Of a DNA stretch of 64,000 nucleotides, positions 7,031-64,000 are shown one piece after another (positions within the stretch are counted from its first letter, which is position 1; every line of letters begins with the position of its first letter). The DNA lies in NCBI GenBank assembly GCA_023374045.1, contig CM041776.1, positions 120,113,000 through 120,176,999 of the forward strand. The letters run 5' to 3'. The notes beneath the pieces are model-generated. The model was not told the origin of the DNA and did no database searches. It saw only the letters and a list, made by a program, of their open reading frames with translations. The stretch comes from Limonium bicolor. Lineage: Eukaryota; Streptophyta; Magnoliopsida; Caryophyllales; Plumbaginaceae. The position numbers were made by a program, and so were the translations under genes.

Positions 7031-7035
7031 CTGGT

Positions 7036-10656: not shown

Positions 10657-10674
10657 TCCCCGGCAACGGCGCCA
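10657..10674 (-). other. Primer-binding site, tRNA-Asp type
   Basis: On the minus strand the site reads TGGCGCCGTTGCCGGGGA. Its complement equals the CCA-bearing 3' end of plant tRNA-Asp(GUC), an 18-base match. It lies three bases from the 5' LTR. tRNA-Asp priming is usual for Athila elements. Confidence 0.92.
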
Positions 10675-10677
10675 TTT

Positions 10678-31391: not shown

Positions 31392-33111
31392 AGTGAGCCT
31401 CGATTTTAAACCCTATCCTATGTTGATTAGATTGATTGGGATCTAGTCGGGTTTTAGGTCCGCTTATAACCAAAGATTAATAACTATGTCATATAACATT
31501 GATTATTAATACCCAAGCTAGCTCACTAGAACCTATTATGAGTCGCCACCTAATTTTTACCTAGATCAAATTAGGAAAGGAGAGTTCGGGATCGGGGGCT
31601 TGATTTCAATTTAATTAGGGTTCAATTACTTTCATTACCCCTATAAGTCGTTTTTCCTCTACTTAGTTTAATTACGGCTTATTACGAGTCGGTTTAACCT
31701 AAGTGCGTGAGCTTCTGTTTTTTTGTGTTTTTTAGCATTTTTTGACAGAAAATTAAAATAAAATTAAAGATTCCTAAACTAGGGTTTCGGAGGCAGAATT
31801 AGGTCAAATTTTGTTTCCGTCCGTGGCTACGAACCTAATGTCCGAACCCATGGACCCTAGTTAACCTATGTGAACATAAAAGTCGAATTAAACAGAATAC
31901 ACAATTTTGAAAGGTCCGGGACCACGGACAGGATCTCCGTGGGCCCGGACATTATTTTAGAAAACCTAAATTTTGAAATACCGCCACCGTCCGGGGGCGT
32001 CCGGGCTTACGGACAAGGCGTTCGGGACCCTGGACATAGCGTCCGTTGGTGCGGACCGCCCTCGGACGGTGGCGTTTGGGAGGTTCCCGACAATGTTTTG
32101 AGCTCAAATTTTATGGGTGTGTAGCCTGAAAGATTTACAATACGTTAGTGCTTAAAAGTTTTCAATTTGAAATCGAATTTAATGTGAAACTTAACAAACA
32201 AGTAATTGGGCAGAAGCTTAAACAAACAGCAACCCAGAAGCCACGAAAGGTTAGTTTGAACCCAAATTTCGATATAAGACTAATAAAGTCGTAGGGAGTT
32301 AGGAAAGTGAGATTCCTACCCATTTTACCTTTGGATTTACAATGATTCTTCACGTCGGGGTTCGTCGAGTGCTCCGTTGATGGTAGACCCAAAAGGTTTT
32401 CGCACCAAGCTTCTGGTTGTTGGTTGTTCTTGCTGTTCTTCACGTTTTGGTGCTGTTTTGGTGAAGGTTTGATGATGGATGATGTTGTGGGAGTTGAAAA
32501 AGGTGTTTTAGTGCTGATTTTGTGAGATTTCAATGAAATTTCGGGGCTTGGATGTGTAAAAACGTGGAGAGGTTGTGACGGCTGAGTTTCTTGAGGTGTT
32601 AGGGTTCTTCAGGTTCTGATTTGATCATGGGATAAGGTTCCTTATATAGACTTCCTTAAAGATAGAAAAATCCGGTAAAAACCGAGATTTACCGACATTT
32701 TAACTCAAGGGCTTCCAAAAGGAATTTGATTATAAAATTTTACACATGGGTAAAGGATGATATTTCTGATTTTTCTAAAAGGGAATAGAATTTTTTGGAT
32801 ATTGGGATATTTTTAAATTCAATTTCTCGTCAGAGTCAACCAGAAATTGCTAGCAAATTATTGGAAATTCAAAAAAATCAAAATTCCAACGTCATTATGC
32901 TTCAAATGTCATCCTCTATCATGGGTTAATATTTCATAGCATTTTGAATTGATTTGACCCTTATTAGGAGCCTTGAAAATTTTCAAAAAGGCCCTTGAGA
33001 TGACTAAGCTGTTCCTAGTACTTTGAAATGTGCCGATCAAACTGGGAACCCTCGCTACTAGCCTATTAGTAGAGACTCTCTTCCGGGGGGGTTGAAATTT
33101 TGGGTATAACA
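31392..33111 (-). repeat. 3' LTR (LTR B) of the Tat-like gag-only element
   Basis: It runs from AGTGAGCCTCG (first base changed from T) to GGTATAACA. A sense TATA-like box CTATATAAGG is at 32639-32648. A GTCCG/CGGAC inverted-repeat cluster lies at about 31815-32072. It lacks a roughly 30-bp segment present in the partner LTR near 40290. Confidence 0.92.
32639..32648 (-). promoter_or_regulatory. TATA-like box in LTR B
   Basis: The minus strand reads CTATATAAGG. The same box is at 39964-39973 in the 5' LTR, which would drive the element's transcript. Confidence 0.55.
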
Positions 33112-33225
33112 GATTGCCCCCCGTCAACTAGACTTTGTAATGAAAATGAAAAGGCAAGTTGATGCTTGAGTGATACCCCAAAATTTTGGATCTTAAAAGA
33201 CCCCGTGTGCAATTGAAATCCGACA

Positions 33226-38694: not shown

Positions 38695-40465
38695 TGTGAG
38701 CCTCGATTTTAAACCCTATCCTATGTTGATTAGATTAATTGGGATCTAGTCGGGTTTTAGGTCCGCTTATAACCTAAGATTAATAACTATGTCATATAAC
38801 ATTGATTATTAATACCTAAGCTAGCTCACTGGAACCTATTATGAGTCGCCACCTAATTTTTACCTAGATCAAATTAGGAAAGGAGAGTTCGGGTTCGGGG
38901 GCTTGATATTCGACTTAATTAGGGTTCAATTACTTTCATTACCCCTAGAAGTCGTTTTTCCTCTACTTAGTTTAATTACGGCTTATTACGAGTCGTTTTA
39001 ACCTAAGTGCGCGAGCTTTGTTTTTTTGTGTTTTTTAGCATTTTTTGACAGAAAATTAAAATAAAATTAAAGATTCCTAAACTAGGGTTTCGGAGGCAGA
39101 ATTAGGTCAAATTTTGTTTCCGTCCGTGGCTACGGACCTAATGTCCGAACCCACGGACCCTAGTTAACCTATGTGAACATAAAAGTCAAATTAAACAGAA
39201 AACACAATTTTGAAAGGTCCGGGGCCACGGACAGGATGTCCGTGGGCCCGGACAGGATGTCCGTGGGGCCGAACATTATTTTAGAAAATCTAAATTTTGA
39301 AATACCGCCACCATCCGGGGGCGTCCGGGCTTACAGACAAGGCGTCCGGGACCCCGGACTTAGCATCCGTTGGTGCGGACCGCCCTCGGACGGCGGCGTT
39401 TGGGAGGTTCCCGACGGTGTTTTGAGCTCAAATTTTATGGGTGTGTAGCCTGAAAGATTTACAATACGTTAGTGCTTAAAAGTATTCAATTTGAAATCGA
39501 ATTTAATGCGAAACTTAACAAACAAGTAATTGGGCAGAAGCTTAAACAAACAGCAACTCAGAAGCCACGAAAGGTTAGTTTGAACCCAAATTTCGATATA
39601 AGACTGATAAAGTCGTAGGGAGTTAGGAAAGTGAAATTCCTACCCATTTTACCTTCGGATTTACAATGATTCTTCATGTCGGGGTTCGTCGAGTGCTCCG
39701 TTGATGGCAGACCCGAAAGGTTTTCGAACCAAGCTTCTGGTTGTTGGTTGTTCTTGCTGTTCTTCACGTTTTGGTGCTGTTTTGGTGAAGATTTGATGAT
39801 GGATGATGTTGTGGGAGTTGAAAAAGGTGTTTTAGTGCTGATTTTGTGAGATTTCGATGAAATTTCAGGGCTTGGATGTGTAAAAACGTGGAGAGGTTGT
39901 GACGGCTGAGTTTCTTGAGGTGTTAGGGTTCTTCAGGTTCTGATTTGATCATGGGATAAGGTTCCTTATATAGACTTCCTTAAAGATAGAAAAATTCGGT
40001 AAAAACCGAGATTTATCGACGTTTTAACTCAAGGGCTTCCAAAAGGAATTTGATTATAAAATTTTACACATGGGTAAAGGATGATATTTCTGATTTTTCT
40101 AAAGTGGAATCGAATTTTTTGGATATTGGGATATTTTTAAATTCAATTGCTCGTCAGATTCAACCAGAAATTGCTAGAAAATTATTGGAAATTAAAAAAA
40201 TCAAAATTCCAACATCAGTATGCTTCAAATGTCATCCTCTATCATGGGTTAAATTTTCATAGCATTTTGAATTGATTTGACCCTTATTTGGAGGAGAGAG
40301 AAAGCCTATAGAGGGCTTAGGAGCCTTGAAAAATTTTGAAAACGCCCCTGGAGATGACTAAGTTGTTCCTAGTACTCTGAAATGTGCCGATCAAACTGGG
40401 AACCCTCGCTACTAGCCTATTAGTAGAGACTCTCTTCCGGGGGGGTTAAAATTTTGGGTATAACA
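38695..40465 (-). repeat. 5' LTR (LTR C) of the Tat-like gag-only element
   Basis: It runs TGTGAGCCTCG to GGTATAACA. Compared with LTR B it has one extra GGACAGGATGTCCGTGGG-type unit (about 39225-39270), so the GTCCG cluster changed length after insertion. A sense TATA-like box is at 39964-39973. Confidence 0.93.
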
Positions 40466-40491
40466 GGTACACGCAGTTTACCTCTCTTCAG

Positions 40492-40578
40492 GTAAACATC
40501 GATTTGAAACCCTTATGCCGTAGTCCATATAAATCATGCCATGTTATGCGAGAATACCAACTAATGTTATAATGTCAG
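40492..40578 (+). other. Gag intron 1, copy 1
   Basis: An 87-bp GTAAAC...GTCAG segment interrupts gag at the same codon as 59309-59392 (copy 2) and 50132-50221 (copy M). Exon sides are conserved between copies while the intron body is not. Confidence 0.85.
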
Positions 40579-40864
40579 GAGTGTTACCATGCTGCATCGA
40601 GAGTTGAGATTACCGTCCAGCTAAGGGACTAGGAGAACGCGCAGAAGCGCAAAGTCAACAACAAGGGTACTGGCTCTGGCGACCAGACCCAAGGAAAAGG
40701 CTGGGGAAAGAAGAAGGGGAAGTACTCCCACCCGACCCAAACCCAAAAGACTACCTCCGGAGAGAGCAGTGCCTATGCTAAGAAGGGCAAGGCATCCGAG
40801 CCTTTGCAGCTTGCCTATTCCGCGCCGGTAGCGGCAAAGCCACTGAGATCTCACCCGCCTAAGG

Positions 40865-40939
40865 GTAAGACTCCCGTTAATCCACAAGTGTATGCAAATA
40901 AACTTAGAATACCGAATCTTGCTAACTCTTAATGCTTAG
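40865..40939 (+). other. Gag intron 2, copy 1
   Basis: A 75-bp GTAAGA...CTTAG segment with phase-1 junctions joins the basic linker to the zinc knuckles. Copy 2 has the same intron at 59646-59724, and copy M keeps the donor (CCTAAGG then GTAAGA). Confidence 0.85.
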
Positions 40940-41278
40940 GTTCTGCATTTGGCTCAGGCAAGGGCAACTCTGAAGGTCGTGCTTTCAGCTGCAAGTATTG
41001 CAAGAACGACCACCCCGGCACTGAATGCCAGGGAAGAGAGGTCAGATGCTTTAGCTGCCGCAAGATGGGACACCGTGCTTACGAGTGCCAGGCCAAGAAG
41101 GGCAATAACCAGGAGTTCAAGCAAAGAGAGGGCAAGGAGATAGCAACTGGTGATGCTCAAACCCAGTATGGCCAGCAGGGGCAGGGGCCTAGAGGTGCTC
41201 AAAAAGGTGCGCCGCAGAGGCAGTCCGCCTTGCATATCATAGACCGCTCAGATGGAACGGGTCCGAAGACCGGTTTAG

Positions 41279-41422
41279 GTACTTTCACAAACCTTTAATC
41301 CTTGAAAGCATGTCTACCGTTTAAATTACTTGTGTGAGTGAATAACACAGAATTATAGTTTACCTAGAGCATTAATTGACTAGTAAAGACTAGAACTCAT
41401 AAAAATGGAACTCGCCACTTAG
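41279..41422 (+). other. Gag-AlkB intron 3, copy 1
   Basis: A 144-bp segment from GTACTT to CTTAG with phase-1 junctions connects the gag tail to the AlkB exon. The same donor could instead use the acceptor at 42294-42295, removing the whole AlkB exon and joining gag to protease in frame. Confidence 0.75.
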
Positions 41423-42153
41423 GAACCTTCAATATCTACTATCCTATACCGACAAAACCAAACCCCGAAGAGCCCGACATCACCACACACCACTACAACA
41501 TCGAACAATGTCAGGTTATCCGACCAGGTATGATATTATTAAAAGGATACTCGACACCCGAAGCACAAGTCACCATCATTCGACGATGCAACGAACTAGG
41601 AGCAAGGCCAGGAGGATTTTACACACCCGAATACCCCGGCGGGGCAAAGATGAAACTAAAAATGATGTGCATGGGGAAGGATTGGAATCCTGACACCCGC
41701 ACCTACCAAGAGCAATGAGCAGAAGACGAAGCAACACCACTAAAAATACTTGGAGAATCCCTAACGGTTGTTACACAAGCCGCAGAGATTGCACAACAGC
41801 TTGAAGCTGACCCTGTACCTGCACTCGAAGCAGACATTTGTATAGTTAACTTTTATCAAGAAGGAGGACTACTTGGTTTACACCAAGATAAGGACAAAAC
41901 AGCGGAATCTCTTAAACAAGGAGTGCCCGTAGTGTCTTGGTCCATCTGAGATGATGCCGAATTCTTGTATGGCGAGCAGAAGCGTGCGGACCGCGCGGAG
42001 AAGATTATCCTCAGGTCAGGAGATGTCTTGATCATGGGTGGTGAGTCGAGAATGCTGTATCATGGGATCAAGATGAATACGGCACCATCGACTGTGATCA
42101 ATGCCACGCACATGAAACCAGGAAGCCTGAACCTTACCTTTAGGAAGTATTAG
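41423..42153 (+). pseudogene. AlkB/ALKBH1-type dioxygenase exon inside Tekay-like copy 1
   Basis: The exon encodes about 243 codons alike to plant ALKBH1-type proteins, with Fe(II)/2-oxoglutarate folds that remove methyl groups from nucleic acids. Visible motifs in order are QVIRPGMILLKGY, GGFYTPEYPGGAKMKLKMMC, DICIVNFY, LGLHQDKDK (iron ligands His 41881 and Asp 41887), GVPVVSWSI, SGDVLIMGGESRMLYHGI (iron ligand His 42061) and LNLTFRKY (2-oxoglutarate Arg 42142). The first Arg of the RxNxTxR signature is Ser here. Two in-frame TGA stops (41716, 41947) show decay. It lies between gag knuckles and protease in the same place as in copy 2, so capture preceded their split. Confidence 0.92.
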
Positions 42154-42220
42154 TCATGAAACACATGTAATACTTAGTAGTATTGTAATAGAAACATCAT
42201 GTATAACCTGGATGGTTTTT

Positions 42221-42226
42221 AATAAA
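42221..42226 (+). terminator. Candidate polyadenylation signal after the AlkB exon, copy 1
   Basis: AATAAA lies 68 bp after the AlkB stop codon in a T-rich setting. Copy 2 has AATAAA at the corresponding place (61005-61010). It would end a Gag-AlkB transcript before pol, or may be left over from the 3' UTR of the captured host gene. Confidence 0.55.
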
Positions 42227-42295
42227 AGCAGGGTTGTTTATCAAGCGTACCACTTGCAAGTTACTATCGAACTCATAAAGCTTATGAATATTTAG

Positions 42296-45200
42296 GTTGT
42301 GGACTCGGTACGGAAGGTAACCTGAGTATACTTACTGAGGAACAGGCCGATAAGAGCGGCACGATCCTCACGGGTACCTTTCCGGTGAATGGCGTTGAGG
42401 CCTCCGTATTGTTCGACTCCGGCGCCTCTCACACCTTTGTCTCGTCGTCATTCGCGAGAAGGTTGGGGCTAGACGTGGTAGAGCTACCCGATTTCATGGT
42501 TACTCTCCCGTCGAAGGAGCGGGTACATTGTACAAAGTACTACCGAGATGCCATTATCCGAATCAAGGGAGAGCAGTTCCTTATTTCCTTCATCGAATTC
42601 AGTGGCCTGGGCTTTGACTTGATAGTTGGGATGAACTGGTTGGAGCGGCATAAGGGGCGAATCCTTTGCGTCGAGCACAGATTGCTGCTCAGGAGTCCAT
42701 CTGGGGTGCAGTTTCGTACTGCCAAAGACCCAGAGAGCCTTCGACCAAAGTCATCACCGCCATGGCCATGTATCGAGAGCTCAGAAAAGGGCATGAAGTA
42801 TTCCTCTGTTATGTGCAAGACCTTGAGAGAGACCTAGAATTCAGCACAGATATCCCGGTAGTGTCGGAGTTCCCTGATGTGTTTCCGAAGGAGCTTCCCG
42901 GCATGCCACCTCAGAGGGAGGTTGAGTTTGAGATTGAACTCCTGCCAGGTACCGGACCCATTGCTAGAGCACCTTACCGATTGGCGCCGGCAGAGATGGC
43001 CGAGTTGAGAGTGCAACTTCAAGATTTGCTTGACAAAGGGTTTATACGCCCGAGCGTATCACCCTAGGGAGCACCGGTTCTCTTCATGAAGAAGAAGGAC
43101 GGTAGCCTCCGCCTCTGCATCGACTACCGCGAGCTTAATGCGGTCACCGTCAAGAATAAATATTCATTACCAGGTATTGATGATCTGTTTGATCAATTGA
43201 AGGGAGCCTCTGTATTCTCCAAGATTGACCTCAGATCCGGATACCATCAAATAGCCATACGAGAGCAAGACATCAAGAAGACCGCGTTCTGAATGAGATA
43301 AGGCCACTATGAGTTTGCGGTGATGCCATTCAGACTGTCGAATGCACCTGCGAAGTTCATGGATCTGATGAACCGACTGTTCAGCGATCAGCTAGACACT
43401 TCGGTTGTGGTATTCATTGATGATATTCTGGTATATTCGAAATCCACGGATGAGCACGAGAGCCACCTAAGGCGAGTACTTGAGACACTCCGCAAGAACC
43501 AACTTTACGCGAAATTCTCCAAATGTGAATTCTGGCTTGACCACGTCTCCTTTCTTGGTCATGTGATATCAAGCGCGGGTATCTCAGTCGACCCGGCTAA
43601 GATTGAAGCAGTTCGTTCGTGGCCTAGACCCAGGAATGTTTCCGACATCCGGAGCTTCCTTGGGCTAGCAGGCTATTATAGAAGGTTCGTGAAAGATTTC
43701 TCAAAAGTTGCGAAGCCTATTCCAGCTTTGATGAAGAAGGACGCACCGTTTGTGTGGACCGATGACTCCGAGATCTCCTTCAGAGCCTGAAGGACTCGTT
43801 GACCTCTGCACCCGTTCTCACCATCCCTGAGGATACGGAAGGATTCGAAGTCTATTGTGATGCATCAGGCAGAGGCCTTGGATGCGTACTCATGCAGCAC
43901 GGCAAGGTAGTAGCTTACGCCTCCCGCCAGCCAAAGAAACATGAGGAGAATTACCCCACCCATGGCCTTGAGTTGGGAGCCATTGTCTTCACATTGAAGA
44001 TATGGCAGCATTATCTTTATGGGGTTAGTGTTACCATCTACTCCGACCACAAAAGCCTACAGTATGTCTTCACGCAGAAAAAACTGAACTTAAGGCAGAG
44101 AAGATGGATGGAATTCCTATCAGACTATGACATCGACCTTCAGTATAAGGAAGGGAAGACGAATGTCGTAGCTGACGCACTGAGCCGTCAAGCACACTCG
44201 CTCCATTCGCTACTCGCCTCTTCTAGCTTGGTTGATGAGGTGCGAGACGCTCAGATGAATGATCCGTATATGAGTGAGATCGGAAAGAACATCATCGATG
44301 GCACATTTGAGCACCGGAAGTATGACTTCAAGCTCCACGACGATGGTTTGATCCGATTGAACGGCAGATTATGCGTTCCCCGAAGCAATGCTGAACTGAG
44401 GGATCGCTTTCTGCGAGAAGCCCACTGTTCTTCATTATCTGTCCATCCGGGAGCCTCTAAAATGTATAAAGGCATGAAGAGGTACTTCTGGTGGTCGGGA
44501 ATGAAATCAGATGTTAATGAGTTTGTCTTGAGGTGTCTCACTTGCCAGAGAGTAAAGTTTGAGCACCGACGGCCGGGTGGAATGGTACAACCGATGCCAA
44601 TTCCTGAATGGAAGTTCCATGATATCTCGATGGATTTTGTTATTGGACTCCCACCTGTTAAGGGAGGACTCAACATGATCTGGGTGATAGTTGATCGCCT
44701 CACCAAGGTTGCCTGCTTCATACCGATGAGGGACACCTGGAAGGTAGCAAGGCTTGCTGAGATATTTGATCGGGAGATTATCCGACATCATAGAGTTCCT
44801 AAGATGATTGTATCTGACCGCGACACCAGGTTTCTTTCGAGATACTGGAGAGCCACACGTGAAGCGCTTGGTACCGAGTTGAAGCTCGGTACAACCTTCC
44901 ATCCACAGACCGACGGTCAGACAGAGCGGATCATCCAGACACTAGAGGACATGTTGAGAGCATGTGCCTTAGATTTTTAGGGGAGTTGGGTTGATAAGCT
45001 ACATCTGATTGAGTTTTCATATAACAACAGCTATCATGCATCGACAAAGAAGTTGCCCTTCCAAGCCTTGTATGGAAGACCTTGTCGTACCCCATTGTGT
45101 TGGGATGAGTCCAGCGAAGCGGTCATTGTAGGACCAGAATACCTTGAGCAAATGCAAGCCGAAGTTGAGCAAATTCGAGAGAATCTGAGAGCTGCCCAAG

Positions 45201-45673
45201 ATTGGCAGAAGTCTTATGCCGATGTGCGACGACGCGACCTGGAGTTCGCCGTGGGCGATCAGGTGTTCCTGCGTGTCTCACCAATGAAGGGCGTGTTCCG
45301 ATTCGGCCAGAAAGGTAAGTTGAGCCCGAAGTACGTTGGGCCTTATGCGATCACGGAGAGGATTGGAGCTGTAGCCTACAGGCTAGCATTGCCTCCAGAC
45401 TTGGGCCGTGTTCATGACGTCTTTCATGTTTCACAGCTCAAGAAGTATATAGCCGATCCATCTCATGTTTTAGAGCCTGATCACTTATCCCTTGAGCCGA
45501 CGATGAGATACGTCGAGACTCCTTTACGAATCCTTGACACCAAGACCAGAGACACTCGCAACAAGTCAGTGCGAATGGTGAAGGTTTTGTGGTCAAACCA
45601 CGACGTCGAAGAAGCGACTTGGGAATTAGAGGACGCCATGAGGGCGAAGCACCCGACACTGTTTGTAGACTAG
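42296..45673 (+). pseudogene. Protease-RT-RNase H-integrase-chromodomain polyprotein, Tekay-like copy 1
   Basis: After the acceptor at 42295 the frame reads through the protease (VLFDSGASHTF). RT has [19 protein letters not shown], then [13 protein letters not shown] and the FIDD box. RNase H has [14 protein letters not shown]. Integrase has [25 protein letters not shown] and the Glu of QTERIIQTLE. The tail VRMVKVLWSNHDVEEATWEL is a Tekay-type chromodomain, which in this clade targets integration to particular chromatin. Breaks: frame changes near 42705-42725 and 43785-43795, and stops at 43065, 43290, 43299 and 44978. Confidence 0.93.
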
Positions 45674-49826: not shown

Positions 49827-50901
49827 TTCGGTTTTAAATTCGAAGTCTTACCCTTAGGTGGGTGAGATCTCAGTGGCTTTACAGCCACCGGTGCACTATA
49901 GGCGAGCGGTAGTGGCTCAGCTACCTTGCCCTTCTCAGCATGGGCACTGCTATCTCCAGGGGTACTCTTTTGTGGTGGGTGGGAGTACTTCCCTTTCTGC
50001 TTCTTCCATCCCTTTCCCTGACCCAGGTCATCGGGGTCGGTACTCTTACCGATCACCTTGCACTTATGCGCAATCTCCTCGTCCCTCAGCTGGACGGTGA
50101 TCTCAACTCGTGAGGCGGCATGGTAACACTCCTGAATTATTCAAATGTTAAATGCTATTCTTGGGTATTAAGGCATTAACTCATATTGACTACGACACTA
50201 AGGGATTAATTCGGTGTTTACCTGAAGCGAGGTAACCGAGTATACCCCATGCCATACTGGAGGCGGTGGCTCAATCCGCCGTAGAAGAGGTCGACAAAGA
50301 CCTTGCCGGTATACCCGAGGTCGGGTAAAAGTCAGAGGATGGAAGTGAAGGTGGTGTAGTATTCATCAACGGTCATCTTGTCAGTCATTTTCAACGCATC
50401 CAGCTCTAGCCTCTTTCTCATCTTCACATGTTCTAGGTAGTACTTAGCTCGAAGAAGTGCGGTGAAAGAATCCAAACCAATGGTGGGGTCGGTGATGTAT
50501 TCGCCCTTGACGAGCTTCCACCAGTCCATAGCCGCATCTTTCAGATAGTATGCAACTATTCTCAACCATACTCCAGTAGGAGCCTCAAGGGTATCGAAGG
50601 CCGTCTCCATCTCGGAGATGTAAGCCTTGAGTTTGGCGGGGTCGCTCTCGCCCCTAAAGCATGGTGGTCGTAGATCAGCTACAGCCTCTACCCAATTCGG
50701 TTCTCAGGGTTAAGGTGGTTAGGGCTGTTGTTGTTGCTGGTTCTGCTGGGTTTGCTGAGTCTGTCGTACAACCGCTATTACCTGAGGTAGCATCTGTGCT
50801 ACTGTGGCAGTGACGATCTCAGCTATCGTGTGCGTGTCGGGCTCCTCAACAGACTCTCCACGACCTCTGCCATGGCCTCGGCCTCGTCCTCTGCCTGATA
50901 T
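49827..50901 (-). pseudogene. Gag of Tekay-like copy M
   Basis: The start codon position (50901) is ATA in place of ATG in a TTGTTCAG-ATA-TCAGGCAGAGG context that matches the copy 2 start. It is followed by an RGRGRGHGRGRG-like basic N-terminus. The capsid core reads AYYLKDAAMDWWKLVKGEY, RAKYYLEHVKMRKRLELDAL and DKMTVDEYYTTFTSIL. Stops interrupt the N-terminal third. Intron 1 is at 50132-50221. Exon 2 ends with the basic linker and the donor of intron 2 at about 49849-49854. Confidence 0.87.
50132..50221 (-). other. Gag intron 1, copy M
   Basis: A 90-bp GTAAAC...TTCAG segment sits at the same codon as intron 1 in the other two copies; it contains stops in the gag frame. Confidence 0.83.
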
Positions 50902-51126
50902 CTGAACAAGCAGTTAACTCATATTAGGTATTACGACCACACGGTCTAGGGTTTAAACAATTGTATCATCCTTTAAGATGTTAAAGGGATTCCGTAATCA
51001 TTAACCGTTATTCAAGATTAGGTCTCTACTTCTCCGTTGCGAAACGGGTTGTAATCCGAACTCGGTAATCACTATGCTCGATAATTCCTAGTCATCAGAG
51101 CGTAACTACGCTTTGATACCACTTTT
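50902..51126 (-). other. Leader and primer-binding site of copy M
   Basis: The PBS, TGGTATCAAAGC on the minus strand (51110-51121), matches the 3' end of initiator-Met tRNA except for one base and is five bases from the LTR. It lies inside an 11-bp inverted repeat (51094-51117) with one mismatch. The rest is noncoding leader ending in the splice-acceptor-like TTGTTCAG before the gag start. Confidence 0.75.
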
Positions 51127-54100
51127 TATAACACCCCTACCGTTAATCCCGTCATTATTGCCTAATTGTCTTGGTCATCATTATAATCACAACAAATTTT
51201 CGTTTACAATGCGGGTGATACAATGTCGTTAGCCGTCCATGCGACTAACCAGGCTTAACTTACAACAGTTACGGTCCAATAAACTAGAAATATACCGAGC
51301 TTCCATAAATACATACATATCATCATACAACCCATATTCAATTACCGAGTAATACAAGAGTTTAATTCAGATACATCACAATCTATTGCAATCACAAAAA
51401 CATACTAGTATGTGTACAACGTGGTACACCGGCCAATTCAAAATGGGCTACCAGCCCATGTACAACTCAGTACACTAACCAAAATATCACTAACTAGCAA
51501 AAGCTCAAAAGTCCGGCCACCAACTCGACCAATCAGCCCTGTCGGTTCCCTGAAATAAAAATAGTGGCCCCAAGGGGCTTAGCATATTGCTGGCATGAAA
51601 TTCGCATACCCCGCGTGCTAACGGGGGTACGCCGACTACTTTGTCGCATGCATGGAGTTGATTTTATTACAAACAATCATGCTAAATAATAACAACATAA
51701 TGGGAATGCACTAGCAACATTCGCACACAGAGCATAACACATGAGAGTGAAAATCAATTCACAAGTCACATTCAATGTCCTCAATCACACCCTCTAAATA
51801 TCCTACTTCTTGGATAAGTTAGGGTTAAGTCGGTATGACCTCCGGTTGAGATATACATATAGATCTCACCACCGGGTCATTTATTTTATAACCCATAATA
51901 CCCGGTTTACCTCTTTAGGCAGGTAAGCCCTGCCAGTCTCACTCCAAATGGGCACCACTATGTGACACACGGCCCCATAGGGCACCACTATGTGGGACAC
52001 AGCCCTGTAACAAGGGAGTTCGACCATGGAATCAGAAACAAACGCTCTGTTGTTTCCTCTTCCTTTCACGCGTGACTCACAATCCCCCTAACCTAACTCT
52101 CTGGTTAGTGATAATATACAGTCAGTGAGTTAGTCGGAGTTCAACTCACAATTCAATCATACGTGGGACATGGCGCATTCTAAGCGGTTAGGTCCTACCA
52201 CTGTGAGTTATGTCAAGTGCCGAGTTAGATTAGATCACAGACAATTATACACTCGTACAAGGCATTCAACCATTCACAAGACAAAAAGAAATGCAGTAAA
52301 CATATTCGTGCATTTATCTTGATAGGTGATTTGCAAACAAACACACAATCACACAAATCGAGGTAATCTCGGTAGCATACAGGGCATGAGAAAATCATAC
52401 CGTTCACCGTCATTGGTTTGTAATCGACTCTCCTTTGGAGTCCAACTATTCAAATCCTATAACATTCATGGAATCAGGTGGTTAATTCTCTATAATTAAC
52501 CTAACTCATTTCATCTTTAATGTTTCTCAATTTACAATTACTAAGTCATTACATTTCAAACTCATTCATACAAGTTACTTGCTACTTATTATTTCCTAAG
52601 CTTGTTTACACCTGTAATGACCATTACATATCATTAATCAACTCCTAAGAATCAACTCCATCTTAAAATTCCATTTATACACTTTCTAGAGCATTTTTGG
52701 GTTGGTCTGGGACCTTATCAAGGTCCCAAGTCCCGGACCAACACTAGAATAAACTTTCGGCAGGTTTTTTTATGTGGTCCGGGACCTTGTACTTACACAA
52801 AGTCCCGGACCAAGTCATGGTATAACTCTCGGCTGCTTTTCTTTGTTGGTCCGGGTCCTTAGCATGGAACCAAGTCCCGGACCAGTATTTGAAGAAACTC
52901 TCGGCTGTTTTAAATGAGGTGGTCCGGGTCCTTGTATGGGACCTAAGTCCTGGACCACTCCCAGAATACAACTCGCGACCTTTTTTATATATTGGTCTGG
53001 GACTTGGTCTTGGACCTAAGTCCCGGACCCTGCTACATTTTGACAAATTTTACATTTTCCTTTGGTGTTCTAACTTCCTTTCTTTGCCCAATCCTTTACC
53101 AATTTTTCCACATGTAATCTTACATGTTTTAGCACTAATTGGACACTCTAAACTTCCATAAATCATTTACTAAACTCATCACTCATTTCCTTGTTAATTT
53201 TACATAATTTTTCCACTCTAAATTTTCCTAGAAACTCTTGCTACAGATTTTGCTCTTCTTCTTTTCACTAACTTAATGGTTCTTCAACTAATGCATTACT
53301 AGTGTTCATTGCATTATTTTCATCCCAAGTCTTACCCCACTACATAACTTCTTACCACAATACATAACTTCTCTCTAATCTAGTTTCCAAGGTAACTAGT
53401 TATTTTAATTGAACTCTAAAACACACCTAGTTATCCTAGGTTCTTTCTATCAACAATTACACTTAAGACATCTAGTTTCTACCCAAATTTCGATAGAGGT
53501 TCCCTACAATTCTAAGAATTGCCCCTATTGTTCATTCAGTTCATCAAAACCAATACAACAACACAACCATTTTAGACACTAACCACACATTAAATTTCAG
53601 CACATTAACACTTAACTCATTTGGCTCCAAGGCCTTTATTCATTATCATAAACACACTAAAATAACTCAACTTCATACTCTCCATTGCAGTAGCTCAACA
53701 ATACTTAAGCAATGTAAATTTTCTCATACAACAGGACATTCAAAATCTGTTTCAAAGGTAAGTCCATTACTTTGGGATTTTCTAGTTTTCTTCCCTTCCT
53801 TTCTCTTCCCTTCCTTCTTGCTCTTTCTCTCTTGTTTTTCCTTGTTTTTAAAACCGGTTATATGGGTATATTACTGATGCTACAGCCAACCCAAGAAAAA
53901 CAACATTAACTTAATAACTAACCCTTGAATTAACCTAGGATTGAAGAAGATGTTTAAGGCTTTAAAGAAGGGTGTTACCTTGCAACTTCTAGGTGAAGTT
54001 TTGGGCAGTAAAATGAAAAGGTTCCAGCTCCAAGATTGAAGACACAAACCGGCTGGAATGGGAAGCAACAAGGGGTTCACGTTGGAATTTTTTTGTTGAA

Positions 54101-54351: not shown

Positions 54352-57300
54352 TGAAATACCCCAAACTTAGATATGGTGTTTAAGTGATAAACTAAGATAT
54401 AAGGAGACAAAATAATGCCTTAGAAACATTAAGAAACCATTTTAACCAAAGAAAACATAAGGAAACACCAAAAGAGCAGTTTAAGCAAAAACGTGCTCTA
54501 AGCTTGGAGAGACTTGGGTGAGAACCCAAATATTGTTCTAATACCTTAGTAATATCCTAATGGTCATTTTAAATCAATTAACAAAGAAAACCAAGCTTGA
54601 AAACAAGTTAAAACACAAAATGTGCTTTAAGGAGTCTTAAAGCACATTTTTGAAAAAATTGTCTTGTAAATGGGTTTTGAGTGGCTAAATGTCTATCATT
54701 ACTCTTTAATTAACATGTGTACTAATTAGTATCACATTAGGAAGTCTAAATCAATGGGAAATCAAAAATTTCACAACAATGTGCCTTGTTTTGTGAATAG
54801 TGACTAATTTAGTCTTTAGTTAATTAAGCTTAGTTAGTTGGTCAAACAAGACCATGACTTGCCTTAATTAATAGGGGGCCGGTTTTTCTAAGGGTGTGAC
54901 TCACCATGAGTAGCCAAATGATATTAGAAAAGAAGAGGGAAAAGTAAGGAGTTACTATTTACTTTAAGAAAACAAATATCTTACTTTACTTACCTCTCTC
55001 CTCATCTCTTCATTCTTCATCTTCTCCACCGGTTTTCCTTGCTCTCTTTCTTCTCTGTCACGTAAAACTCAAACTCCATGCTAGCTCCATCTAGCTTTGA
55101 TCACTACTTGCTCATTTTAGCTCTAAAACCAAAACAAATTACATATTCTTCTTAGTTAGCTCAAGCTCTCTCTTTCTATCTTTTCAAAACTTCAAGAGCT
55201 TTGATTTGGTGCCAAGACAAACCACCATTAGAGGAGGAAACTCAAGTTTGGAGACTCCATTGGCTTCTCCATTCTCTTAAGGTAAAGAAAGTGTAAGAAA
55301 ATCTAGGTTTCCATCACTTTTCTTCATGACCGAAAATACATACTCATGGGGCTTCATTTTAATGATTTGTTCTAGCTTTTTTTCTACTCTCCAAAGGATA
55401 GAGGAGGTCCTTCTTGCTTCATATCCAAGCTTGTCTTGAGAAACCAAGGTAAAACAATCAATTCAATACCTTAAAACACATTTTTAACCTAGGTTTTGTT
55501 CCTTAAGGTTGGTGTGTTGTTTAGTACTCATTGGAGTCATTGAATATTGGTTAGAACATTGGCAAGGAGATTTTAAGTGGTGACCGAGATTGAGCAAGGA
55601 AAAAGTCTAAGGAGCCAAGTTTGTGAGCTTGTAAAAGAACAAGGTAAATTACTTACCTTAAGGTGTTTTTAATGTATTAAGGGATGGGATATGGATAGGT
55701 AACAAGTTTAGCTTAGAGTTTATAATGAAAAAGGGATATGAAACTTAGGAGAAAGAATACTATTATATTGAGAACTTGTGACTAAGGAGCCAATGAGGAA
55801 AGAGATAGTTAAACAATGTTGAGGTGAATTACAAGAAGCATTTTATTTCAATGGGAGCCTTGTTGTGTGTATTTGCAGGTCAAAGGCAAATATATGTGGA
55901 AATTCAGTGGTTAAGATTATTGTCATTTAAGGGCCTAAGTGCCAAGCATTTAAGTTTATACACTATATGATGATGTGGTGTAGTTTTGGTGTAAATTGTG
56001 TGTTAAGATGATGTAATGGGAATTTGAGTGATCTTGGTTGTTTAATGGTGAAAAACCAAGTGTTTAGGTGTAGTAATATACTAGAGAACCTATGTCAAAA
56101 TTTGAAGGAAAAACATGATGTTTAAGATAATCTAAGGAGATTATATGACTAAGGAAGTACTAGGAATCTTGGGTGTTGTGTTGGCTAAAAAGAATGAGTT
56201 CAAGATGTTCTAGTGAACTAGGGTGACTTAGGTATGTCTAGGAGGAACTAGGAGTTACAATGGTGAATTTTAGGCACCGAGACCTTGATAAAAAGAAGTT
56301 AGGAAACTTTAGTAGGTTTGATGTGAATGAGTGTAAAACTTTGAGATGATTTAGGTAGAAACTAGAGTTTAGAATTTAAGGAAGGCTTGGAAATTGTAAT
56401 AGGGGTGGAAAGTAGTATTTATGGTGTGGTCAAGTTCTTAAGGAGGGAACTTTTGGCTAGTAGAAGTTCTAGGTGAAAGGGATGTTGAAATGTAGGAAAG
56501 AAATAAGTGTTAAGTGTTGGTAGTTGTTGTAAGAATTGAGTAAAGGATTGGAATGATCTTTGGAGGTTATTTTAATGAGTATGGAGGATGATTTAAGGTG
56601 GGTTTAAGGGTCTAAATGATGTTAGAACACATTAGGAGGCTTGGGGAAAAATTTGGAATTGAAAGAACAACTTAAGAGTAAAGTCTGTAGTGGTCCGACC
56701 CAGGGTCCGACCCAGTTCTGGGTCGGACGGACCTCTGTTAAGCCACCGTAAATGTTTCTGGAATGGTCCGACCCAGGGGACTTGGGTCGGACATGGGTCA
56801 GACGGGAGAGTTTTAAAAGACGGGAAAATTTCTGGAATGGTCCGACCCAGTTGGTTGGGTCGGACGTGGGTCGGACAAGTGGAACTTTTCAAACCCGATA
56901 GTTACTGGAATGGTCCGACCCAGTTGGTTGGGTCGGACGGTGGGTCGGACGACCCTTAACACTTAAAAAAAAGAAATTTTGAATTCTAAGGATGATAATT
57001 GGTAATAAGGTATGCCATTGGTAGGGTAGTAATGATTAGGACCCTAAGAACCTAAGGGATTAAGTTAAGTTAAGTAAAAACCTTAATGTTTAAAGTTAAG
57101 TTTATAAGGTTAAGTGGCAAGGATTTAAGAGGGTATCGAATGGGAATCTTTAGGGACTAAGTGAGTTAAGTAGGTGCAAATAACTAATGACCTAAAAATG
57201 AATCAATGTTTTAGGTTTGTGAATTGGGACCCCGGAGAAGGTTAAACAAACGACGGACGACGGTGAACGGTACAATCTTTCTTGTGACCTGCTTGCTAAC

Positions 57301-58445: not shown

Positions 58446-58473
58446 TGGTATCAGAGCGTAGTTACGCTCTGAT
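58446..58473 (+). other. Primer-binding site within a perfect hairpin, copy 2
   Basis: TGGTATCAGAGC (58446-58457) matches the 3' end of initiator-Met tRNA over 12 bases, four bases after the LTR. From 58450 the sequence forms a perfect 11-bp inverted repeat (ATCAGAGCGTA, GT, TACGCTCTGAT), so most of the PBS is in one arm of a hairpin. Confidence 0.85.
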
Positions 58474-58675
58474 CATGAAATACCAGACATGAGTAACCAC
58501 CGAGTTAGGATATAAGTTAAGAAATAAGCGATGGGTTAAGGGTGCGAGCTGTTAGTGTGAGCAGAGTCAGATAACCACTAATAAGTGTGGATCGTCTTTA
58601 CCATCTACGAACGTTCTAAATTCGTTAACCGAAACAGTGGTGGATACGAATCTAATGTGAGTTATGATTGTTCAG
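58474..58675 (+). other. Leader of copy 2
   Basis: This is noncoding. It ends GATTGTTCAG directly before the gag ATG at 58676, a plausible 3' splice site shared with copy M. An in-frame ATG also occurs at 58664. Confidence 0.6.
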
Positions 58676-59308
58676 ATGTCAGGAAGGAGAGGCCGAGGCC
58701 GTCCCAGAGGCGACGAGACTGAGATACCGGAGGGGCAGACGATCGTAGAGATCGTAGCTGCCGCATTAGGGCATATGGGCTATCAGCCTGGTGTGGGTGC
58801 ACCACCTCCACCGCCACAACCCAGGGAACCGAATTGGGTGAAGAGTCTTGCAGACCTACGACCCACACACTTTAAGGGGGAGACCGATCCCGCCAAGCTT
58901 AAGGCGTACATCTCCGAGCTGGAGACCGCCTTTGAGACCCTTGACGTCCCTGCTGGGATCAAGGTGCGTCTGGCTGCTTTCTATCTGAAGGGGGCGGCAA
59001 GCGATTGGTGGAAGCTGGTGAGGGCCGAGCATGTGGCCAATCCAGAGTTCCGCTAGGAGCAGTACACCGCCTTGCTACGAGCAAAGTACTACCCCGCCCA
59101 TGTCCAGACGAAGAAGCGCTTGCAGTTGGATGCGCTTAAGCAGACCGACAAGATGACGGTGGACGAGTATTACTCAGAGTTCACCGTCTTGCTCCGTCTT
59201 GTGCCAGGTCTTGGATATTCAGACCAGATCCTGGTGGACCGCTTCTATGGCAGGCTTAGCCATCGACTCCGCTACGGCATGGGGCCGACGAGTTACACTA
59301 CCTTGCAG

Positions 59309-59392
59309 GTAATGAGAATAATTGAGATTTGAGTAAGTAAAGAGTAAGATTTAGATTATGGAAAATAAGAGTGACTAATACTGTGGAAGCAG
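59309..59392 (+). other. Gag intron 1, copy 2
   Basis: An 84-bp GTAATG...AGCAG segment at phase 0 contains stops in frame (TGA soon after the donor). The position matches copies 1 and M exactly. Confidence 0.88.
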
Positions 59393-59645
59393 GTGTGCTA
59401 TCATGCCGCTGCTAAGGTTGAGATAACCGTCCAGCTGAGGGACGAGGAGAAAGCCAAGAGGAAGAATGCTGGTAAGAGCACGGAGAGCCAAGGGCAAGGT
59501 GGGTACAAGAAGCAGAAGTACCAGCCTCGGGCCCAGAAAAATCAGAACCCAAAAGGGAAGGAGGAAAAGGAGAAGGCTCCGGAAGAGCCATTGAAGTTGA
59601 CGTATGCTTACGCAGCTACACCCCTGCGCTCTAGGGCGCCAAAGG

Positions 59646-59724
59646 GTAAGGGATTGGTATTGAGTGAGTTAAGAAACAATTAGTAACCGTTTGAGATATG
59701 AGTATTGATATTGTGAATGGTCAG
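59646..59724 (+). other. Gag intron 2, copy 2
   Basis: A 79-bp GTAAGG...GTCAG segment at phase 1. Its removal joins the lysine-rich linker to the knuckle domain; unspliced reading ends in a TAG after about 13 codons. Confidence 0.88.
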
Positions 59725-60066
59725 GATCTGAGACTGAGAAGGGAGCCGGTGGTGGCTACCAGCGACGCTACATCTGTAGGTGGTGTCACAAGGACCACCC
59801 CGGGCTCGATTGCAAGGGGAATAAGGTGGAGTGCAACTATTGTGGGGTACACGGACACCGGGCATATGAGTGCTTCCGGAACCCCGCTAGCAGAGCCTAT
59901 AGGCCCGATACTAGGGGCAAGGGCAAGACCGATCAGGGAGCTGGATCTGACGGTCAGAGGAAGGTGCAGCAAGCTGCAGACAAGAACCCACGGGTGACCC
60001 AGAAGTCGGGACCCACACTACACATGGTGGACCGGGACGATGAGCCTGAACCCTCATCGAGGCCAG

Positions 60067-60198
60067 GTACCGCTATAACCACTTAGTAATAAAACTACCT
60101 GCTTACCGCATTATCATGCATGTTTGGTGAATAATTGAGTTAAGTAAGAATGAGATGAGATTAGAACTTAAGTAAGATATAACCTACTACCACTTTAG
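60067..60198 (+). other. Gag-AlkB intron 3, copy 2
   Basis: A 132-bp GTACCG...TTTAG segment at phase 1 joins gag to the AlkB exon. Using the acceptor at 61086-61087 in its place gives a 1021-bp intron that contains the AlkB exon and joins gag to protease in frame. Confidence 0.8.
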
Positions 60199-60932
60199 GA
60201 AGCTTCAACATCTGCTATCCAATACCATTTACATCTAACCCGGAGCACACCGATATCGAAACCATAGACTTCCCAACCGAACAATGTCAGGTTATCCGCC
60301 CAGGTATGATTTTATTAAGGGGATACCTGACACCCGAAGCACAAATAGCCATCATCAGAAGATGCAATCAACTAGGAATGGGACCGGGAGGTTTATATAC
60401 ACCGGAATACCCAGGGGGAGCAAGGATGAAATTAAAGATGATGAGCTTAGGCAAGGATTGGAATCCGTATGCCAAGACTTACCAAACCACTAGAATGCAA
60501 GATGGAGTCTCACCACCGGGGATAGAGTTCCATCCAGTTATTACACAAGTCGTGAAGATCGCTCAGCAGTTGGAAGCTGAACCGATTCCAGACATACAAG
60601 CAGACATTTGCATTGTGAACTTCTACGAGAAAGACGGGCGACTTGGACTACACCAGGATAAGGACGAGACAACGGAGTCTCTCGAAAGAGGGATACCCGT
60701 AGTGTCTTGGTCCATTGGGGATGATGCAGAGTTTTTATACGGCGAGTAGAAGCGTGCAGACCGTGCGAATAAGTTGGTACTTAAGTCTGGAGATGTATTT
60801 ATTATGGGAGGAGAATCAAGGATGTTATACCATGGGATTAAGAGAATCAAGCTGAACACAGCACCGTCAGCAGTGATTAATGCGACGCACATGAGACCAG
60901 GAAGATTAAACCTAACCTTTAGACAATATTAG
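60199..60932 (+). pseudogene. AlkB/ALKBH1-type dioxygenase exon inside Tekay-like copy 2, one stop
   Basis: About 244 codons match plant ALKBH1-type nucleic-acid demethylases over the whole catalytic domain. The nucleotide-recognition lid region has QVIRPGMILLRGY and GGLYTPEYPGGARMKLKMMS. The jelly-roll core has DICIVNFYEKDGRLGLHQDK (iron ligands His 60651 and Asp 60657), IPVVSWSIGDDAEFLYG, SGDVFIMGGESRMLYHGI (iron ligand His 60831) and RLNLTFRQY, with both Arg residues of RxNxTxR (60903 and 60921). One TAG (60747) interrupts it. The exon ends in its own TAG followed by AATAAA. The family acts on methylated adenines or cytosines in DNA or RNA; the substrate here is unknown. An element-encoded eraser of RNA methylation is a reasonable inference. 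Confidence 0.94.
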
Positions 60933-61004
60933 ACATGTAATGTTAGAATATGATGAGGAATGAGATGTAAGACTTAAGCACATGTTGTAAACAGGATGGT
61001 TATG

Positions 61005-61010
61005 AATAAA
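61005..61010 (+). terminator. Candidate polyadenylation signal after the AlkB exon, copy 2
   Basis: AATAAA lies 73 bp past the AlkB stop, matching the site in copy 1 in position (68 bp). It is upstream of the pol acceptor, so its use would make a Gag-AlkB mRNA without pol. Confidence 0.55.
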
Positions 61011-61087
61011 ATAACAGTGTCGTTCACATATATTGTTACGACTCTTGTTATACCATCAATACTCATGAAGCTTATGAACACAATTAG

Positions 61088-64000
61088 GTCATGGACTCGG
61101 TACGGAAGGTGCGTTAAGCATACTTACAGAGGCACAGGCCGACGCCAGCGGCACTATCCTCACCGGCAACTTTCCGATTAATGGAATTGAGGCATCAGTT
61201 CTCTTCGACTCAGGGGCCTCGCATACCTTTGTCTCGGCATCTTTCGCGAGCAGGTTGAGGCTAGACGCTGATGAGCTACCCGACTTCACGGTTACGCTCC
61301 CGTCTAAGGAGAAGGTTCGTTGCACTCGATACTACCGAGGAGCCATTGTCAGAATCAAGGGGGAAGACTTTCCAGTCAGTTTTATTGAGTTCAGTGAGCT
61401 AGGATTTGATGTTATCTTCGGGATGAACTGGTTGGAGCGGCACAAGGGACGTATCCTCTGCGCCGAGCATAGACTACTGCTCAGGAGTCCGTCTGGGGTA
61501 ACGATATCATACCGCCAGAGGCCCAGAGAGCCTTCGACTAAGATCATCACCGCCATGGCAATGTATAAGGAATTGAGGAGAAAGGAAGAAGTGTACCTCT
61601 GCTATGTACAGGACATAGAGAGAGACCCCAAGTTCGACCCCGACTTACCGGTAGTGTCGGAGTTCCCCGACCTATTTCCACGGGAACTGCCCGGCATGCC
61701 ACCCACTCAGGAGGTAGAATTCACCATCGAGCTGCTACCTGGTACCGCCGATAGCCAAGGCACCATACCGCATGGCTCCGGCAGAAATGAATGAATTGAA
61801 AGAACAGTTGAAAGATTTGTTAGATAAGGGATTTATAAGACCAAGTGTGTCACCATGGGGAGCGCCAGTCCTCTTCGTGAAGAAGAAGGATGGTAGTCTC
61901 CGCCTCTGCATCGACTACAGAGAGCTAAATGCAGTGACAGTGAAGAATAAGTATCCACTACCCCGCATTGACGATCGGTTCGATCAGTTGAAGGGAGCAT
62001 CTGTGTTCTCCAAGATTGATCTCAGATCGGGGTATCATCAGATAGCCATTAAGGAGGGAGACATTGAGAAGACGGCATTCCGGACACGCTACGGCCACTA
62101 CGAGTTTACAGTGATGCCGTTCGGTTTGTCGAACGCACCGGCGAAGTTTATGGATCTGATGAACCGCTTGTTCCGGGAGCAGCTGGACAAGTCGGTTGTG
62201 GTATTCATCGATGACATATTGATATATTCGAGATCTAAGGTTGAACATGAGGAACATCTGAGGAAGGTATTAGAGATACTGAGGGAGAACCAGCTATATG
62301 CTAAGTTCTCCAAATGTGAGTTTTGGCTTGACCAGGTCTCTTTCCTAGGTCATGTCATCTCAGATGCTGGGATCTCAGTGGATCCAGCAAAGATTGATGT
62401 TGTACGTACTTGGCCAAGGCCGAAGACTGTTACCGACATCCGGAGCTTTCTCGGTCTGGCAGGTTACTACAGGAGGTTTGTTAGGGATTTCAGCAAGGTC
62501 GCGAAACCGATGACCAGTCTGATGAAGAAAGATGCACCGTTCTTATGGACGGCTGACTGTGAGAGATCATTTCAGAGTTTGAAAGACTCACTGACCACTG
62601 CACCAGTTCTGACCATTCCAGACGGTACAGAGGGCTTTGAGGTTTAATGTAATGCATCCGGCAGAGGGCTGGGTTGCGTGCTCATGCAACATGGCAAGGT
62701 GGTGGCATATGCCTCACGCCAGTTGAAGAAACTTGAGGAGAACTACCCCACACATGATTTAGAGCTGGGAGTTGTAGTCTTCGCTTTGAAGATATGGCGC
62801 CACTACTTATACGGGGTTAGTGTGACGATCTACTCCGATCATAAGAGTTTAAGATACATATTTACTCAGAAGGAGTTGAATCTTAGACAGATGAGATGGT
62901 TGGAATTCTTGAAAGACTATGACATTGACCTCCAATACAAAGAGGGGAAGGCCAATGTTGTAGCAGACGCCCTGAGCCGTCGAGCACACTCACTCCATTC
63001 GCTAGTTTCTTTCTCCAGCTTGGTTGATGAGGTGCGAGAGGCTCAGAGGACAGATGAGTACATGAGGGAGGTCAGACAGAAGCAGACAGATGGTACCTTT
63101 GAGAGTCAGAAATATGACTTCAGACTTCACGACGATGATCTGATCAGACTTAAGGGCCGGTTATGCATACCACGGGGCAACACGAATCTGAAAGACCGTA
63201 TACTTAGGGAATCACACTGTTCTTCAGTTTCCATCCATCCGGGAGCCTCTAAGATGTATAAAGACATGAAGAGATACTTCTGGTGGTCGGGGATGAAGAC
63301 AGATGTTACCGAGTTCGTCTTGAGGTGTCTCACATGCCAGAAGGTAAAATTCGAGCACCGACGACCGGGCGGAATGGTACAATCGATGCCAGTTCCAGAG
63401 TGGAAGTTCCATGATATTTCCATGGACTTTGTAGTTGAACTCCCACCTGCTAGGGGAGGTCTCAACATGATATGGGTGGTGGTGGATCGCCTTACCAAAG
63501 TAGCCCGATTCATACCGATGAAGGATACTTGGAAGGTGACCAAATTAGCTGAGTTATTTGAAAAGAAATCATGAGACATCACGGGATACCGAAGACCATA
63601 GTGTCAGATAGAGATACCAGATTCCTTTCGAGGTACTGGAGAGCTACTAGAGAAGCGTTGGGTACAGAACTGAAGTTAAGTACCGCGTTCCATCCTCAGA
63701 CAGATGGTCAGACTGAGCGTACGATTCAGACACTCGAGGACATGCTGAGGGCATGTGCCTTAGACTTCCAGGGCAGTTGGATTGACAAATTGCATCTGAT
63801 CGAGTTTCATACAACAAACAGCTATCACACTTCGATCAAGATGGCACCTTTTCAAGCGTTGTACGGTAGACCATGTCGTACACCGCTCTGCTGGGATGAG
63901 TCGAGTGAGACGGTCATTATAGGACCAGAGTACTTAGAGCAAGTTAAGGCTGAAGTTCAGCAAATCAGGGAGAACATGAAAGCTGCTCAAGATAGGCAGA
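61088..64000 (+). pseudogene. Protease-RT-RNase H-integrase of Tekay-like copy 2 (end outside window)
   Basis: The frame from the acceptor at 61087 is open through the protease (VLFDSGASHTF) to about 61745, where one base is missing. RT follows in the next frame ([48 protein letters not shown]). RNase H starts with a TAA (62645) and the following catalytic Asp is changed to Asn (CNASG for CDASG). RNase H and integrase continue to 63574 ([47 protein letters not shown]). The SDRDTRF and QTERTIQTLE motifs follow after a frame change. Another length change is near 63808. The chromodomain is outside the window. Confidence 0.93.

Follow-up and report, generated by a model that had tools for sequence, protein, structure and literature searches.

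Can a plant LTR retrotransposon carry an enzyme that removes methyl marks, and if so, how would that enzyme be made and on what would it act? The question is raised by 64,000 nucleotides of Limonium bicolor DNA (contig CM041776.1), here called the window, where a preliminary description made from the letters alone had placed an AlkB domain inside a Ty3/gypsy element. The domain is present in two copies (Table 1). The profile PF13532 (2OG-FeII_Oxy_2), with a curated cut-off of 31.2 bits, is matched over positions 1-194 of its 194 by copy 2 (60199-60932; E 4.6e-44, 151.4 bits, with X at the stop) as well as by copy 1 (41423-42153; E 4.9e-38, 131.7 bits, with X at the stops), and the uninterrupted part of copy 2, an ORF at 60306-60746, gives E 2.5e-22 when searched on its own. 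Copy 2 is immediately preceded by an acceptor-like TTTAG and closes with a stop codon at 60930-60932. Aligned to rice ALKBH1, its HxD...H ligands are His 60651-60653, Asp 60657-60659 and His 60831-60833, the arginines of RxNxTxR fall at 60903-60905 and 60921-60923, and the ligands of both iron and 2-oxoglutarate are complete; in copy 1 the first of the two arginines is replaced by Ser. The interval, the full-length ALKBH1-like domain, the active-site residues and the existence of another copy in the same place were thus all read correctly beforehand. The stop codons within the domain were not in that description: an in-frame TAG at 60747-60749 interrupts copy 2 and two in-frame TGA codons interrupt copy 1, and a full enzyme cannot be made from either in its present state. 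No third AlkB was found in the window by tblastn with E up to 0.01.

Compared with solved structures, copy 2 is closest to rice ALKBH1 (5xeg, E 3.3e-70), followed by E. coli AlkB and then human ALKBH1, and the first ALKBH5 structure comes 43rd in rank. At the level of sequence comparison, the assignment of the domain to the ALKBH1-like class is supported.

Table 1. Features of the AlkB-bearing elements and of a third, truncated element, in window coordinates; a slash marks a predicted junction
Feature	Element	Positions	Strand	Remarks
Primer binding site TGGTATCAGAGC	copy 2	58446..58457	+	exact motif, ~200 nt upstream of gag
gag exon 1 (capsid part)	copy 2	58664..59308	+	in-frame stop at 59054
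Predicted intron A, 84 nt	copy 2	59309..59392	+	GTAATG...GCAG, AT 0.70, LQ/VCYH in frame
gag exon 2	copy 2	59393..59645	+	
Predicted intron B, 79 nt	copy 2	59646..59724	+	GTAAGG...TCAG, PKG/SETE in frame
gag exon 3 with zinc knuckle	copy 2	59725..60066	+	
Predicted intron Ca, 132 nt	copy 2	60067..60198	+	gag donor to AlkB acceptor
Predicted intron Cb, 1021 nt	copy 2	60067..61087	+	gag donor to protease acceptor; contains the AlkB exon
AlkB (ALKBH1-class) exon, own stop	copy 2	60199..60932	+	PF13532, 5xeg, Ka/Ks 0.12
AATAAA, candidate poly(A) signal	copy 2	61005..61010	+	73 nt past the AlkB stop
Protease	copy 2	61088..61383	+	PF08284, 2.5e-13 over first 69 residues; end approximate
Reverse transcriptase	copy 2	61772..62644	+	PF00078, 3.5e-38
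RNase H and integrase	copy 2	62678..63999	+	PF17917, PF17921; cut by window end
Predicted intron A, 87 nt	copy 1	40492..40578	+	
Predicted intron B, 75 nt	copy 1	40865..40939	+	
Predicted intron Ca, 144 nt	copy 1	41279..41422	+	TGLG/TFNIYYP in frame
Predicted intron Cb, 1017 nt	copy 1	41279..42295	+	TGLG/CGLGTEGNLS in frame
AlkB exon, own stop, two in-frame TGA	copy 1	41423..42153	+	PF13532, 4.9e-38
AATAAA after the AlkB stop	copy 1	42221..42226	+	aligned with the copy 2 AATAAA at 61005
Protease, RT, RNase H, integrase, weak chromodomain match	copy 1	42296..45670	+	
Third, truncated element	third	49844..51121	-	primer-like site 51110-51121, gag 50485-50856, intron A 50132-50221

The elements that carry the domain have the Ty3/gypsy order of protease, reverse transcriptase (RT), RNase H and integrase, as found by profile and similarity searches of the window. 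Copy 2 runs from a primer site through gag, zinc knuckle, AlkB, protease, RT and RNase H to an integrase at the window end, and copy 1 from zinc knuckle, AlkB and protease through RT, RNase H and integrase to a weak chromodomain match; the location between the gag zinc knuckle and the protease (PF08284) is as it had been described. The primer site of copy 2, TGGTATCAGAGC, which we take to be of the tRNA-Met type, is the only exact match among six in the window with at most two mismatches, where 4.0 would be expected by chance. The chromodomain match of copy 1 (PF00385, E 4e-4, 20.6 bits) is under the cut-off of 25.1, and copy 2 is cut by the window end. These two features give some support to regarding the elements as chromovirus-like, and to that extent the earlier label of a Tekay-like element holds; the resemblance to Tekay itself is presumed. 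The capsid part in gag exon 1 of copy 2 matches PF19259 at E 3.4e-5 and 23.8 bits, under the cut-off of 29.1. Copy 1 lacks part of its 5' side, and neither a primer site nor a paired LTR was found for it in the window; the 3' LTR of copy 2 would fall past the window end. In both copies gag and protease are parted by stops, including the stop of AlkB itself, and the protease of copy 2 is in a different frame from gag exon 3. A passage of PMC3605345 describes gag and pol of beet chromoviruses as one continuous ORF, which is not what is seen in the window copies.

A third element on the minus strand is truncated. Its primer-like site has one mismatch, its counterpart of intron A is 90 nt long and its intron B is represented by the donor alone; against copy 1, exon 2 is 79% identical and intron A 69%. 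No AlkB or RT was found next to it (49844-51121).

Further repeats lie in the window. A stretch of 1.7 kb is present in duplicate at 31393-33112 and 38696-40466 with about 95% identity, the latter occupying the expected 5' side of AlkB copy 1, and distant pieces of it (74-89%) lie at 27071-29158. Tandem arrays with units of 72-73 bp are found at 52694-53029 and 56754-56951 and have inverted-repeat cores (GGTCCGGGAC...GTCCCGGACC; GTCCGACCCA...TGGGTCGGAC); the second array precedes the primer site of copy 2 and may be part of its 5' LTR. A different Gypsy-like element takes up 1-12501 on the minus strand, with RT, integrase and terminal repeats of about 1 kb that are 96% identical, and its ORF at 2178-3539 matches PF20167 (plant transposon protein) just under the cut-off.

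How, then, could a domain with its own stop codon be expressed from the middle of gag-pol? The gag of both copies is broken by gaps that are short and AT-rich, have stops in all frames and GT/AG borders, and restore the frame when removed, and we predict these to be introns, which the preliminary description had not considered. The last gag donor, AG/GTAC, lies 3' of the zinc knuckle at 60066/60067 in copy 2 and 41278/41279 in copy 1, and in both copies it is in frame with two acceptors, one before AlkB and one before the protease, an arrangement that had likewise escaped notice. In copy 2, removal of the shorter intron (Ca; AG/GTACCG...TTTAG/GA, AT 0.67, stops in all frames) would join SSRPG/SFNICYP, and removal of the longer one (Cb) would join SSRPG/HGLGTEGALS. 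The lengths of introns B and Cb differ between the copies in their remainder modulo 3, and the frame is kept in each.

The eight junctions were picked by eye at first, with the frames in view, and we therefore enumerated as a control every GT-AG pair with an intron of at least 60 nt between fixed coding anchors. The pairs that gave an open reading frame numbered 3 of 15 in copy 2 and 4 of 15 in copy 1 for A, 7 of 42 and 5 of 15 for B, 6 of 67 and 12 of 81 for Ca, and 1 of 1580 and 6 of 1419 for Cb; none of these gaps is open when unspliced. Open pairs that are aligned in both copies are far fewer (one each for A, B and Cb, two for Ca), and the predicted pair is always included. For Cb it is the sole open pair in copy 2 and the sole one of copy 1 that aligns with copy 2, and the second aligned Ca pair shares the donor and takes as its acceptor an AG immediately ahead of the AlkB core (60304, 41528). 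The control favours the splice reading. The small introns are 64-70% AT, against 41-55% for the zinc-knuckle exon, AlkB and protease. By a rough consensus, the six distinct donors rank first in five cases and second in one among 7-13 nearby GTs, and the eight acceptors rank first to fifth among 9-20 nearby AGs, with the protease acceptor of copy 2 in the lowest place (5 of 9). What speaks against the splice reading is the conservation between the copies, which in gag exon 3 (48%) barely exceeds that of intron B (45%) and in the terminal 30 nt of exon 1 is no better than in intron A (47% and 43%; 57% and 69% when each is compared with the third element). The AATAAA behind the AlkB stop could be a chance occurrence in AT-rich DNA.

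The AlkB could instead be translated by itself as an independent ORF, starting internally at the Met of GMILL or read from a transcript of its own, with the AT-rich flanks as mere spacers. In both copies the domain ends in a stop of its own, and a Met stands at the start of its core, where gene callers also start two database relatives (P0001 and P0003, see below); orchid elements likewise encode AlkB in an ORF2 apart from gag-pol (PMC9289625). We nevertheless consider this rather unlikely. The GT-AG sites are aligned between the copies and in each of them lead in frame to either acceptor, despite the differences in length modulo 3. Similar AT-rich gaps with stops occupy corresponding positions in gag, gap A in three elements and gap B in two, and the third element still has the donor of B. 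Ahead of the Met, the FNI(C/Y) stretch can be aligned between copy 1 and copy 2 and resembles the FDIC of host proteins, and its Ka/Ks is 0.35 (interval 0.08-0.85, 35 codons).

In search of relatives, 5.8 billion proteins were searched three times, with length and shared words restricting the candidates; the best 120 of 1404, 116 of 116 and the best 120 of 1246 matches were listed. Four of these proteins, P0001-P0004, are 60-74% identical to copy 2, and the others among the matches listed reach at most 54%. All four are unannotated, on contigs of 26.6, 26.6, 10.0 and 1.2 kb. Being called ORFs, they are open by construction, and the ligand residues are kept in the part that is present. P0001, with an open frame, is 74% identical to copy 2. 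P0003 scores 375 bits, just ahead of P0237 from Artemisia annua (43% identical, 359 bits). No relatives were found in viral contigs by scans with P0001 and with alignment A1. None of the 116 listed proteins is an annotated protein with the same gag-AlkB fusion. P0190 from Cinnamomum micranthum, which has a PF03732 gag and an ALKBH1 domain in one annotated protein, resembles a parallel fusion, but its AlkB groups with Persea (100/99) and has the host stretch before FDIC, and it is more likely a host gene model that has been joined to a nearby gag.

Three trees were made from rows hand-picked among the listed proteins (57, 63 and 61 rows), the second with domains cut by blastp and the third without two long bacterial rows. 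Copies 1 and 2 and P0001-P0004 form one clade of six rows in all of them (100/99, 96/95 and 98/95). When the tree is rooted with bacteria (7 of 80 kept stretches, from 578 confirmed in prokaryotic genome contigs and bacterial by title), this clade comes out beside the land plants and not inside them. AU tests rejected none of the constrained positions, with p 0.30 when the clade was held with land plants, 0.28 with seed plants and 0.27 with angiosperms. In the kind of tree with host ALKBH1 genes that the preliminary description had proposed, the clade thus falls in or beside plant ALKBH1; the element AlkB may have come from seed plants or from an earlier source. Six of the listed proteins are host ALKBH1 of bryophytes, a lycophyte, a fern and gymnosperms (P0163, P0169, P0191, P0199, P0200 and P0216); they hold PF23134 besides AlkB, and five of the six also PF06221, domains that are absent from the named angiosperm ALKBH1 rows among the matches listed.

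The class of the domain may have a bearing on its substrate. The structure model of P0001 (pLDDT 91) matches rice ALKBH1 5xeg at TM 0.92, and the next matches are E. coli AlkB structures bound to methylated DNA. For rice ALKBH1 a role as a 6mA DNA demethylase is proposed in a passage of PMC7758401, and for this reason the substrate could also be DNA, with the enzyme demethylating or repairing (6mA, alkylated bases) the cDNA or chromatin of the element and not its RNA. We find this improbable: if fused to the zinc knuckle of gag, as predicted, the enzyme would be brought to RNA, and the AlkB of an orchid Gypsy lineage, although of another class, is active on m6A RNA in vitro (PMC9289625).

Has the domain been of use to the elements at all? 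The two copies are alike from the AlkB exon (41415/60190) through pol to 45209/64000, with 76% nucleotide similarity, and gag is less alike than AlkB and pol (61% for exon 2, 48% for exon 3). Between 40462-45209 and 59260-64000, the contrast of 48% in gag exon 3 with about 76% in AlkB and pol could reflect a faster evolution of gag or an exchange of gag modules. Between the AlkB domains of the two copies Ka/Ks is 0.12 (resampling 0.00-0.19; 236 codons, 8 skipped), with 50, 31 and 108 changes at codon positions 1, 2 and 3. This is near the value of the protease (0.16); RT gives 0.05 and RNase H-integrase 0.09, and in the integrase core Ks is saturated. As controls, AlkB in the wrong frames gave 1.01 and 1.53 and the spacer between AlkB and protease 1.03 (37 codons, interval 0.33-2.70). 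All Ka/Ks values are rough because Ks is near saturation, but the controls stand clearly apart. To judge by this pattern, the AlkB domain is one that was held under purifying selection in the element lineage before the copies decayed; it was therefore kept by the lineage and is not a chance insertion in one copy. Since the copies lie at different places and are 24% diverged, the domain must have served the lineage before their decay. That it is a host gene fragment captured by chance and of no function to the element is hardly credible and was rejected on this Ka/Ks: both copies have stop codons, and plant LTR elements commonly hold pieces of host genes, as stated in a passage of PMC13317346, but a fragment without function would not be expected at full length, at the same site in two diverged copies, under constraint near that of the protease and with complete ligand residues in copy 2.

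On balance we think it somewhat more probable than not that the window elements represent a chromovirus-like Ty3/gypsy lineage in which an ALKBH1-class AlkB, kept by selection, is a predicted alternative last exon, so that either Gag-AlkB or Gag-Pol would be made. AlkB would then sit as a terminal exon within the intron that parts gag from pol. A short mRNA for Gag-AlkB would arise by use of the AlkB acceptor and polyadenylation at the internal AATAAA, much as in EVADE of Arabidopsis, where splicing is coupled to premature polyadenylation and yields a Gag mRNA (in a passage of PMC8892269); splicing to the protease acceptor would remove AlkB within the intron and give Gag-Pol, and the unspliced RNA would be the genome.

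Gag-AlkB would presumably join Gag in the particles and work on the RNA packaged there, on which it would be held by the zinc knuckle directly N-terminal to AlkB. By taking an N6-methyl (or N1-methyl) group off adenine, it may let the RNA escape host marks that restrain retrotransposon RNA. Such restraint is described in a passage of PMC12786077, where m6A on ONSEN RNA in plants leads to sequestration that is relieved by ALKBH9B. More tentatively, we propose that the product is a self-packaged RNA eraser: three gag introns would be removed, and the last donor would pick either pol or the terminal exon for a Gag-AlkB that works on genomic RNA in the particle, so that a single splice choice would set both the ratio of Gag to Pol and the removal of methyl marks from the RNA of the element.

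The preliminary description knew of no AlkB in a plant LTR retrotransposon, and this does not stand. The Gypsy_Pa_2799 lineage of Phalaenopsis has an AlkB with m6A RNA demethylase activity in vitro, found in no genome outside Phalaenopsis among 121 genomes (PMC9289625), and the idea of an AlkB-bearing Gypsy element is consequently not new. The orchid lineage and the window element are both plant Ty3/gypsy elements with an AlkB kept over rounds of copying and a proposed action on element RNA. The former belongs to the Ogre/Tat clade, is 25.5 kb long and has a tRNA-Arg primer site, gag-pol in one ORF and an ALKBH5-type AlkB at the C-terminus of a separate ORF2 (PMC9289625). The window element, in contrast, has what we take to be a tRNA-Met-type primer site, a chromodomain-like C-terminus, and an AlkB that is nearest to rice ALKBH1 and sits between gag and protease among predicted introns. 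Primer site, AlkB class and AlkB position rule out membership in the Phalaenopsis family, and the window element appears to stem from a separate capture, with a different AlkB class and in a different element clade. In the open-licence literature other than bioRxiv preprints, we found no report of an ALKBH1-type or gag-fused AlkB in a plant LTR element, and the lineage of PMC9289625 was the only one found with any AlkB domain; an orchid LTR element with AlkB is also mentioned in a passage of PMC12786077. The window element differs from the published case in primer site, AlkB class and AlkB position, and its predicted mode of expression would be new.

Other known systems resemble the window element in part. 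Plant ALKBH1 (OsALKBH1, 5xeg/5xoi) shares the domain, the predicted fold, the ligand residues and the FDIC-like motif upstream, but the element AlkB is on a long stem branch, is without the host N-terminus and has a predicted splice to gag. AlkB domains in plant RNA viruses of the Alphaflexiviridae, Betaflexiviridae and Closteroviridae (PMC9289625) are likewise found in selfish elements that copy RNA; their replication system is unrelated. Splicing is used also by the plant LTR elements EVADE (shGAG), BARE, for which a spliced Gag RNA is described in PMC3735527, and Ogre, which has an intron according to a passage of PMC12786077. The window element differs from these in having three predicted gag donors and an acceptor choice that would add an enzyme to Gag and not just drop pol.

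An LTR element with several introns would be unusual. Plant LTR elements are generally intron-less, with Ogre and EVADE as notable exceptions, according to a 2025 review (PMC12786077). The predicted Gag-AlkB fusion is testable, and it says both where the enzyme would be located, in the particle, and how it would be made. If this is an independent second capture, the removal of methyl marks would pay retrotransposons more than once, which would mean that their hosts use such marks against them.
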